This document shows positions 59,718 to 63,203 of a stretch of 64,000 bases of DNA, one piece after another. The stretch lies in NCBI RefSeq assembly GCF_017498545.1, contig NZ_CP071793.1:3410001-3474000 (forward strand), written 5' to 3'. Source of the DNA: Sulfidibacter corallicola (GTDB lineage: Bacteria; Acidobacteriota; Holophagae; Acanthopleuribacterales; Acanthopleuribacteraceae). Position numbers and translations under genes: made by a program. Within the stretch, counting starts at the first letter, position 1. The number at the start of each line of letters is the position of its first letter. Under the pieces are notes generated by a model. The model did not search any database. It had not been told where the DNA came from and was given only the letters and a program-made list of their open reading frames with translations.

Positions 59718-61283
<1,566 letters not shown>

Positions 61284-61321: not shown

Positions 61322-61339
61322 TCCTACTTTTTGGTAGGA
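61322..61339. promoter_or_regulatory. Palindromic TCCTAC-N6-GTAGGA site, distal
   Basis: TCCTAC (61322-61327) and GTAGGA (61334-61339) spaced by 6. It has the same half-sites and spacing as the site at 61629-61646. Candidate activator (enhancer) binding site, 460 bases before the -24 element. Confidence 0.5.
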
Positions 61340-61620
61340 CCACGCCGGGTGATCCCACTTCGAGACCACATTCACTCTGTTTTTTGCCGCATCATGGCGA
61401 ATCCCTTCGACGCATAGACACCTCGTTCGTTCGGATGAGTTTCGGCCGCTTCGACGAACGTGCGGTGGGCCCCTCATTTGTTCACTCACTGGGCAAATGC
61501 CCCGAAATACGCCGGTTTCAGGCCCAGAAACGGCCATTCCCAAGGGGTTTCCGTGCCGCTCGGCAAGACCGATGCGCCTTCCAGCCAAGCGGGCCGAAGG
61601 GGTCCGTCAGGGTACCGTGC

Positions 61621-61654
61621 CCTAGAAATCCTACGTTTCGGTAGGATTTCTAGG
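61621..61654. promoter_or_regulatory. Palindromic TCCTAC-N6-GTAGGA site, proximal (14-bp perfect arms)
   Basis: CCTAGAAATCCTAC (61621-61634) and GTAGGATTTCTAGG (61641-61654) are perfect inverted arms around GTTTCG. It contains the TCCTAC-N6-GTAGGA core (61629-61646). The centre is about 160 bases upstream of the sigma-54 -24 element, the usual distance for an enhancer site. There is no T-run, so a terminator is unlikely. A lone GTAGGA half-site lies near 61671. Confidence 0.55.
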
Positions 61655-61798
61655 CCGCACCTACACATCCGTAGGAAATTGACCCCGGTGTCAGAACCAG
61701 GAACCCCATTCTATTGACGCTCTGCGTCATGGGTCACGGGGTGTAAACCTTTGGTAAACCCCGCTTTCAGGGACAGTAGGTGTCAACTGGACACGATG

Positions 61799-61813
61799 TG
61801 GCACAGTTTCTGC
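61799..61813 (+). promoter_or_regulatory. Sigma-54 (-24/-12) promoter of amtB
   Basis: TGGCACAGTTTCTGC matches the consensus TGGCACR-N4-YTGC at every defined position, with GG and GC correctly 10 bases apart. It lies 62 bases before the amtB start, which gives a leader of about 50 bases. Confidence 0.8.
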
Positions 61814-61874
61814 CTTATAGGGAAGCATCGGAAAAAGGCCTTTTTGATTACTCAAACTTTTAAGAGGACATGCC

Positions 61875-63203
61875 ATGGTTCTGTTGAACAAGTGCCTCAT
61901 CGCCATTTTGGTTTTCTTTTCATCTCCACTGATTTTCGCGCAAGATACTTCTGCCGTTTCAGACGAAATGTTTCGTATCAACAACACTTGGATGATGGTC
62001 GCCACCTTCCTCGTCTTTATCATGCACCTCGGCTTCGCCGGCCTGGAAAGTGGCTTCACCCGCGCTAAGAACGCGGTAAATATTTTATTCAAAAACGTTT
62101 CCATTCTATGTATTGGCATTTTGGCCTACGCCCTGGTCGGATTCAACCTGATGTATCCCGGCGACCAGTTCGCCGGATCCTTTTTTGGCTTTGCCGGATT
62201 TGGCATTGGGGCCGGTTCCGCCGGGCTCACCAGTGCCTACAACGAAGGGTATACCTACTACACCGACTTCCTGTTCCAGGCCATGTTCGCCGCAACCGCC
62301 GCCACGATCATTTCGGGTGCGGTCGCCGAACGCATCAAGATGGGTTCCTTCATGCTGTTCGCCACGCTCTACGTCGCGTTGGCCTATCCCATCGTGGGCA
62401 TGTGGAAGTGGGGCGGCGGCTGGCTGCAGGAACTGGGTTTCCACGACTTCGCCGGATCGACCATCGTGCACGGTGTCGGTGGCTGGGGTGCCCTGGTCGC
62501 GGCCTGGATGCTCGGTCCCCGACTGGGTAAGTTCATCGACGGTAAACCGCGTCCCATCGCAGGGCACAGTCTACCGCTGGCATTTATCGGCGCCTTCCTG
62601 CTCTGGCTGGGTTGGTTCGGATTCAACGGGGGCTCGGTGCTCTCGGCCGATCCCGGCGCCGTCTCCCTCGTCCTGGTCACCACCAACCTCGCCGCCGCGG
62701 CCGGTGCGCTGGGCGCGCTGGTGGTCTCCTATCTGGCCTCCAAAACCTACGATCTGGGCATGGTGCTGAACGGCGTGCTGGGCGGACTGGTCGCCATCAC
62801 CGCCGGTGCCGACGTGATCGGCCCCACCGGTTCGGTCATCGTGGGCCTGGCAGGCGGCGCCCTGGTCGTGCTTTCGATGCTGGCCATCGACCGCATGGGC
62901 ATCGACGACCCGGTGGGCGCGGTTTCGGTCCACTTGGTCTGCGGCGTCTGGGGCACCCTGGCCGTGGGTATCTTCGGCAAGGCCGACCCCGCCGTCCTGG
63001 GCTACAGCCTCTCCTTCACCAATCAGCTCATCGGTGTGGCGGCCTGCGGCGTCTTCTGCGCCATCGTCTCCTTCGTCTTCCTCACCGCCGTCAAGATGAT
63101 TGCCGGCCTGCGGGTTGACCAAGAAGAGGAACTGCACGGGCTGGATGCGGCCGAACACGGCATCGAGGCCTACAGCGGCCTGCCGTTTTCCGCACCGAAC
63201 TAG
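61875..63203 (+). CDS. amtB: Ammonium transporter AmtB
   Basis: A 442-residue membrane channel of the Amt/Mep/Rh family. A signal-like N-terminus (LIAILVFFSSPLIFAQ) precedes 11 membrane spans. Landmarks are NNTWMMVATFLVFIMHLGFAG, FFGFAGFGIGAGSAG, FDFAGSTIVHGVGG-type DFAGSTIVHGVGGWGAL with the first pore His, and GWFGFNGGSV. The second pore His is in VHLVCGVWGTLAVGIFG. Transcription should be driven by the sigma-54 promoter upstream under the adjacent activator. No glnK gene follows, unlike the common glnK-amtB pair. Confidence 0.95.
   Translation: MVLLNKCLIAILVFFSSPLIFAQDTSAVSDEMFRINNTWMMVATFLVFIMHLGFAGLESGFTRAKNAVNILFKNVSILCIGILAYALVGFNLMYPGDQFAGSFFGFAGFGIGAGSAGLTSAYNEGYTYYTDFLFQAMFAATAATIISGAVAERIKMGSFMLFATLYVALAYPIVGMWKWGGGWLQELGFHDFAGSTIVHGVGGWGALVAAWMLGPRLGKFIDGKPRPIAGHSLPLAFIGAFLLWLGWFGFNGGSVLSADPGAVSLVLVTTNLAAAAGALGALVVSYLASKTYDLGMVLNGVLGGLVAITAGADVIGPTGSVIVGLAGGALVVLSMLAIDRMGIDDPVGAVSVHLVCGVWGTLAVGIFGKADPAVLGYSLSFTNQLIGVAACGVFCAIVSFVFLTAVKMIAGLRVDQEEELHGLDAAEHGIEAYSGLPFSAPN

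Follow-up and report, generated by a model that had tools for sequence, protein, structure and literature searches.

A predicted sigma-54-dependent nitrogen switch at the amtB locus of Sulfidibacter corallicola with AnfA-type palindromic sites

Introduction

PII is the hub of nitrogen control in most bacteria, and in the enterobacterial model NtrC controls glnA and glnK-amtB from two sites about three turns of the DNA apart upstream of a sigma-54 promoter. For AnfA of Rhodobacter capsulatus, the consensus core TAC-N6-GTA was defined experimentally, and two TAC-N6-GTA sites lie between anfA and the sigma-54 promoter of anfH, both of which are required for full expression (PMC7294313). In Rhodopseudomonas palustris, AnfA is thought to be kept inactive by PII via its GAF domain (PMC12093980). 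The consensus for VnfA of Azotobacter vinelandii is GTAC-N6-GTAC, as cited from Woodley 1996 in two papers (PMC9542535; PMC7294313), and an AnfA/VnfA-like regulator, DVUA0143, is described in a study on the Desulfovibrio regulome (PMC4641369).

Here, we describe a locus within a 64,000-nucleotide stretch of the S. corallicola genome (NZ_CP071793.1, positions 3,410,001 to 3,474,000; in the following "the window", with coordinates counted from its first letter). It resembles the arrangement of AnfA and the anfH promoter in its GAF-AAA+-HTH activator, in the position of the activator gene directly upstream of the target (here predicted to be amtB) and in two dyads that are built on the core TAC-N6-GTA and placed in the stretch from the activator gene to a sigma-54 promoter; a third dyad is added below. 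It differs in the flanks of the site, which are CC/GG here, and in the target: AnfA serves the Fe-nitrogenase of a diazotroph, whereas the predicted target genes here serve the assimilation of ammonium and nitrate, and no nitrogenase was detected in their genome. In R. palustris, AnfA is controlled by PII, a protein that was not detected here. VnfA shares the GAF-AAA+-HTH architecture, the N6-spaced dyad with inner TAC/GTA and the paired sites at regular spacing, but has an outer G where C is typical here. With the NtrC system, the locus shares a pair of sites about three turns apart in front of a sigma-54 promoter, which serves amtB or glutamine synthetase, but a GAF domain replaces the phospho-receiver domain, the site is a different one and the PII-NtrB-NtrC chain was not found. 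Among open-licence papers, we found no report tying a NifA-like activator to amtB in non-diazotrophs, and, of the papers listed, the AnfA paper alone had the phrase TAC-N6-GTA.

Results

The activator gene (59718–61283, plus strand) encodes a NifA/AnfA-like bacterial enhancer-binding protein of 521 amino acids with GAF, AAA+ and Fis-type helix-turn-helix domains (Pfam GAF, Sigma54_activat and HTH_8), which confirms an earlier note on this DNA in placing a GAF-AAA-Fis activator gene just 5' of the amtB region. The protein narrowly passes the nifA model TIGR01817 (542.9 bits, cut-off 528.85) and scores below the cut-off of the NtrC model TIGR01818 (358 versus 558.6 bits), with a GAF domain and no receiver domain at its N-terminus. 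It thus shares with NifA the domain architecture, the GAFTGA motif (at residue 277) and a score above the curated cut-off, but differs in having no cysteine cluster between AAA+ and HTH and in belonging to a family in which nifH was not detected. Most annotated relatives found on plasmids are NifA proteins or other activators of the sigma-54 type, and none reaches 60% identity. Within the GAF domain, for which a conserved cysteine motif is described in AnfA and VnfA, one cysteine (C126) is invariant among the clade members aligned. As a side observation, residue 143 is Arg in 33 of the 40 clade members and Cys in three, including the window protein, whose family is without detectable PII.

Three enhancer-like palindromes (no strand assigned) lie between the activator gene and amtB. 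The distal one (TCCTAC-N6-GTAGGA, 61322–61339) is an exact match 38 nt past the activator stop codon and has a counterpart at +88 to +102 past the activator match in both same-family orthologues; the middle one (TCCTAC-N6-GTAGGA, 61629–61646) is likewise exact and is conserved in loci L086 and L087. These are the two matched palindromes which the earlier note had reported, and both are present as claimed; it overlooked a third, proximal copy with one mismatch (ACCTAC-N6-GTAGGA, 61659–61676), which is nearest to the promoter. Middle and proximal palindromes are 30 bp apart, start to start, a spacing that is identical in all three genomes compared. The exact 18-bp pattern occurs twice in the genome of 11,786,365 bp, both times at the amtB locus (reversed-pattern control: 0). 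A search for further copies in front of -24/-12 promoters, as the earlier note had proposed, yielded no other exact copy, but did reveal imperfect sites before glutamine synthetase and narK. With one mismatch allowed, the pattern is not enriched genome-wide (11 versus 12 in the control), so that clustering, position and conservation carry the evidence, and raw counts do not. Upstream of the activator gene itself, no palindrome of this kind was found in the window genome.

Alternatively, the repeats could act at the RNA level, as terminator of the activator gene or as attenuator of amtB. The first repeat is indeed located just past the activator stop codon, and the middle palindrome is enclosed by a 14-bp inverted repeat (61621–61654) in the window genome and folds strongly as RNA (-39.9 kcal/mol over 91 nt, z = -4.0). 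In the three-genome intergenic alignment, however, this longer repeat with its extra arms is absent from the orthologues and only the 18-bp core is kept; what is conserved are the letters TCCTAC/GTAGGA and not just the pairing. Moreover, no T-run follows the repeats and a terminator scan passes over them, no Rfam family comes near its threshold (a chance-level match only), relatives carry the same letters upstream of unrelated genes, and all sites lie upstream of the predicted start of the amtB transcript. With Rfam, the terminator scan and the orthologue alignment against it, the hairpin reading was rejected and appears highly improbable to us. The palindromes are, very probably, docking sites for the neighbouring activator.

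The sigma-54 promoter (TGGCAC-N5-CTGC, 61799–61813, plus strand) has the correct GG to GC spacing but deviates at one position from TGGCAC-N5-TTGC (CTGC versus TTGC), and is therefore near-consensus rather than "perfect", as had been stated earlier. Since single-mismatch matches to the consensus, though few, are not unique within the window, its support comes from conservation in relatives and not from the match alone: two same-family genomes keep the promoter as TGGCACAGTTTTCGC and TGGCACAGATTCTGC. The block CTTATAGGGA lies directly past the -12 element (61814–61823, plus strand), where the orthologues carry CTTATAGGGG, and transcription of amtB is expected to start near 61825. Right after the -12 element, CTTATAGGG is kept in the amtB promoters of three genomes and also in a glutamine synthetase promoter of the family genome G004 (L158, about 2160–2170); it is perhaps a start-site element or the site of another regulator. 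The predicted target amtB (61875–63203, plus strand; PF00909 393.5 bits, TIGR00836 above cut-off) encodes an ammonium transporter and is the sole Amt gene found in the genome, which also has a single copy of rpoN (PF04552).

In two other genomes of the same family, activators of 81–82% identity are followed by three palindromes, of which the second and third are again spaced by 30 bp, and then by the promoter and amtB. When the three intergenic regions were aligned, the palindrome arms and TGGCACAG..GCCTTATAGGG ranked among the longest stretches kept in all of them. A fourth family genome, G002, encodes an activator of 54–56% identity and carries amtB on a different contig, with two palindromes and TGGCAT-N6-TGC upstream of amtB and a further site at the activator gene. 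As activator and amtB are apart in G002 yet both have the site, this argues against mere hitch-hiking. Judged from these sequence comparisons, there is a high probability that the regulatory module at amtB is real. The description of the locus as a "self-contained regulatory module" holds in so far as activator, palindromes, promoter and amtB are conserved as one unit, but at other places in the genome the site recurs before genes for glutamine synthetase and a nitrate transporter.

The sites are found far beyond the family. In a set of 80 genome loci with activator relatives, exact CCTAC-N6-GTAGG palindromes occur beside the relative in records labelled Deltaproteobacteria, Hydrogenedentota, Thermodesulfobacteriota and Spirochaetes, and in other phyla they adjoin the activator gene on both sides. 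Tests of neighbouring regions used motifs that were first spotted in part of the same data, with the exception of an unbiased scan around the activator genes, which counted every dyad of 3, 4 or 5 bases with a spacer of 0–16. Around the 50 activators of the nearer half, TAC-N6-GTA is the top dyad (68 observed versus 6.7 expected), and CCTAC-N6-GTAGG was observed 15 times versus 0.03 expected. The top dyads around the farther half, i.e., ACAA-N2-TTGT, ACA-N4-TGT and TACAA-N2-TTGTA, all belong to the TAC-N6-GTA core. The VnfA site GTAC-N6-GTAC did not occur around the 94 activators, where the outer C is typical. As a further difference to NifA, its site TGT-N10-ACA is not enriched around these 94 activators (3 versus 4.9 and 10 versus 6.5 in shuffles), which upholds the view that the palindrome is unlike NtrC and NifA sites. 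It does not, as the earlier note had suggested, represent a new class of enhancer site: its invariant core, TAC-N6-GTA, is the consensus determined by experiment for AnfA (PMC7294313), and the VnfA consensus contains this core as well. Rather, the CC/GG flanks define a sub-type of the AnfA-type site.

The flanks go along with the recognition helix of the activators. The window activator belongs to a 40-member clade in which the recognition helix mostly reads xERxMGLR ("GLR"), while the other 54 read xxRxxxYK ("YK"), and CC-flanked sites (CCTAC..GTAGG) accompany GLR helices whereas A/T-cored sites (TACAA-N2-TTGTA) accompany YK helices. The split between GLR and YK is a single change on the activator tree (branch support 85), and this strong association is therefore to be read as a correlation resting on one evolutionary event, not as proof of which residues set specificity; some activators of the GLR clade have no recognisable CC-flanked site nearby. 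The activator of the window family groups with those of other phyla (GLR), while its class relatives carry the YK type, and the activator module was therefore probably exchanged between lineages.

The regulon was searched with the pattern CTAC-N6-GTAG followed by TGGCAY-N6-TGC at 82–112 nt. In 20 activator-bearing genomes (about 109 Mb), this gave 17 matches, against two with the pattern reversed; 17 class relatives that lack the activator (about 51 Mb) gave none. With a looser promoter at a distance of 113–143 nt there was little enrichment (9 versus 6 in the control), so that spacing outside the main range is weak evidence by itself.

The absence of the pattern from those 17 relatives bears on the possibility that the palindromes serve a different regulator, e.g., an NtrC-like response regulator, with the neighbouring activator as a bystander. 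The genome is rich in NtrC-type proteins (30 matches at E <= 1e-90), none of which exceeds the TIGR01818 cut-off, although the same cut-off also misses a Caulobacter control. Against a bystander role, the site follows activator genes across phyla, on either side of the gene, and its core is that of AnfA, which is likewise a GAF-AAA-Fis protein (PMC7294313). We consider a different regulator improbable and regard the neighbouring activator as the likely binder.

Downstream of site and promoter, we observed amtB (genomes G002, G045 and G050), type I glutamine synthetase glnA (G053, G047 and G051), glutamine synthetase III (G046), nifH (G055) and nirB beside a narK-type gene (G006). Five of the 17 downstream genes are apparently unrelated. 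In the window genome, a NarK-type nitrate transporter gene follows a single imperfect site (CACTAC-N6-GTAGGA) and promoter at G000:C1:722570. A GlnII-type glutamine synthetase gene (G000:C1:3212734), whose product scores 451 bits and thus below the GlnII cut-off of 500, is preceded by a single site with one mismatch (ACCTAC-N6-GTAGGA) and CGGCAC-N5-CTGC. Both sites being imperfect and single, and the one-mismatch pattern unenriched, they could have arisen by chance, which would leave amtB as the sole target of a genuine activator and site. In G004, however, the orthologous glutamine synthetase gene lies behind a sigma-54 promoter and three sites, two of them exact and spaced by 30 bp; nirB of G006 has two sites, again 30 bp apart, and a promoter; and glutamine synthetase is the target once more in other phyla. 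A regulon confined to amtB therefore seems unlikely, and with sites also before glutamine synthetase and the nitrate transporter, the amtB locus would be the hub of a small nitrogen regulon.

In one Spirochaetes genome (GWB1_27_13; L112/L143), a member of the clade has two sites, TGGCAC-N5-TTGC and nifH downstream of it, indicating that the same code serves there as a NifA system. In the window family, by contrast with NifA-controlled diazotrophs, nifH gave background scores only in the four activator-bearing genomes (28.7 bits at best in the window genome versus a cut-off of 394, and likewise in G002, G004 and G006). PII (PF00543) was matched in none of the seven family genomes (G000–G006), three of which are also without the activator, and was found in 7 of 8 other class members, in all six genomes of other phyla and in 13 of 14 controls. 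Neither NtrC nor GlnD was found above its cut-off in the family, but these cut-offs also miss known members, so that both negatives carry little weight.

Discussion

The data are best accounted for by a sigma-54-dependent nitrogen-scavenging switch, in which the activator would act via the palindromes on amtB and probably also on glutamine synthetase and narK; we put the probability of this reading at roughly 0.8. Dimers of the activator would bind the TCCTAC-N6-GTAGGA palindromes by way of the Fis-type helix-turn-helix, and the AAA+ ring could assemble more readily on two sites that lie about three turns of the DNA apart and about 125–170 bp upstream of the promoter. Pairs of sites 30 bp apart recur at amtB of three genomes, at glutamine synthetase of G004 and at nirB of G006, and such a pair would suit two dimers on one face of the DNA. 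Looping of the DNA could then carry the ring to the sigma-54 RNA polymerase at the promoter, where the GAFTGA loop would remodel the closed complex and allow transcription of amtB. The same activator would probably also drive the single sites before the GlnII-type glutamine synthetase and the NarK-type nitrate transporter. The link between activator and site rests on co-occurrence and gene neighbourhood, from which we infer the activator as binder and, further, its activity under nitrogen shortage; dimer binding and looping are proposed by analogy with AnfA (PMC7294313).

A NifA/AnfA-type activator that, as predicted here, runs ammonium and nitrate assimilation in bacteria without nitrogenase, and in a family without detectable PII, looks new. 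As PII was not found in the family, the activator would presumably respond to a ligand bound by its GAF domain, or else be adjusted through the level at which it is expressed. Direct ligand sensing could be the simplest alternative to the PII route, with 2-oxoglutarate as the obvious candidate. More broadly, a one-component activator of the NifA/AnfA type, from a clade spanning several phyla and using the CCTAC-N6-GTAGG code, might replace PII-NtrB-NtrC, its GAF domain reading the nitrogen status directly and thereby inducing amtB, glutamine synthetase and nitrate uptake; in diazotrophs of the clade, the code would serve nifH. This proposal of PII-free nitrogen control is tentative, and we hold it at slightly below even odds.

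A family that probably consists of large-genome Acidobacteriota and is without detectable PII would carry a conserved and predictable circuit that could stand in for PII. Moreover, the use of the AnfA-type site TAC-N6-GTA would reach beyond nitrogenase to nitrogen assimilation at large, and this in several phyla, and CCTAC-N6-GTAGG, which marks nitrogen-uptake and nitrogen-fixation genes across phyla, could serve as a readable code for predicting regulons. This raises the question of the direction of recruitment, from regulators of assimilation to those of nitrogenase or the opposite way.

Two observations from the gene neighbourhoods concern less expected partners. In two deltaproteobacterial genomes, the enhancer and -24/-12 promoter precede dapF, encoding diaminopimelate epimerase (G053: L140, G053:C68:86418; G047: L141, G047:C144:64931), an odd target for a nitrogen activator. 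Among the genes next after the activator at 89 loci, ammonium transporters (20), Gcw_chp proteins (13) and glutamine synthetases (7) are the commonest, the Gcw_chp proteins (PF09694) being of unknown function.
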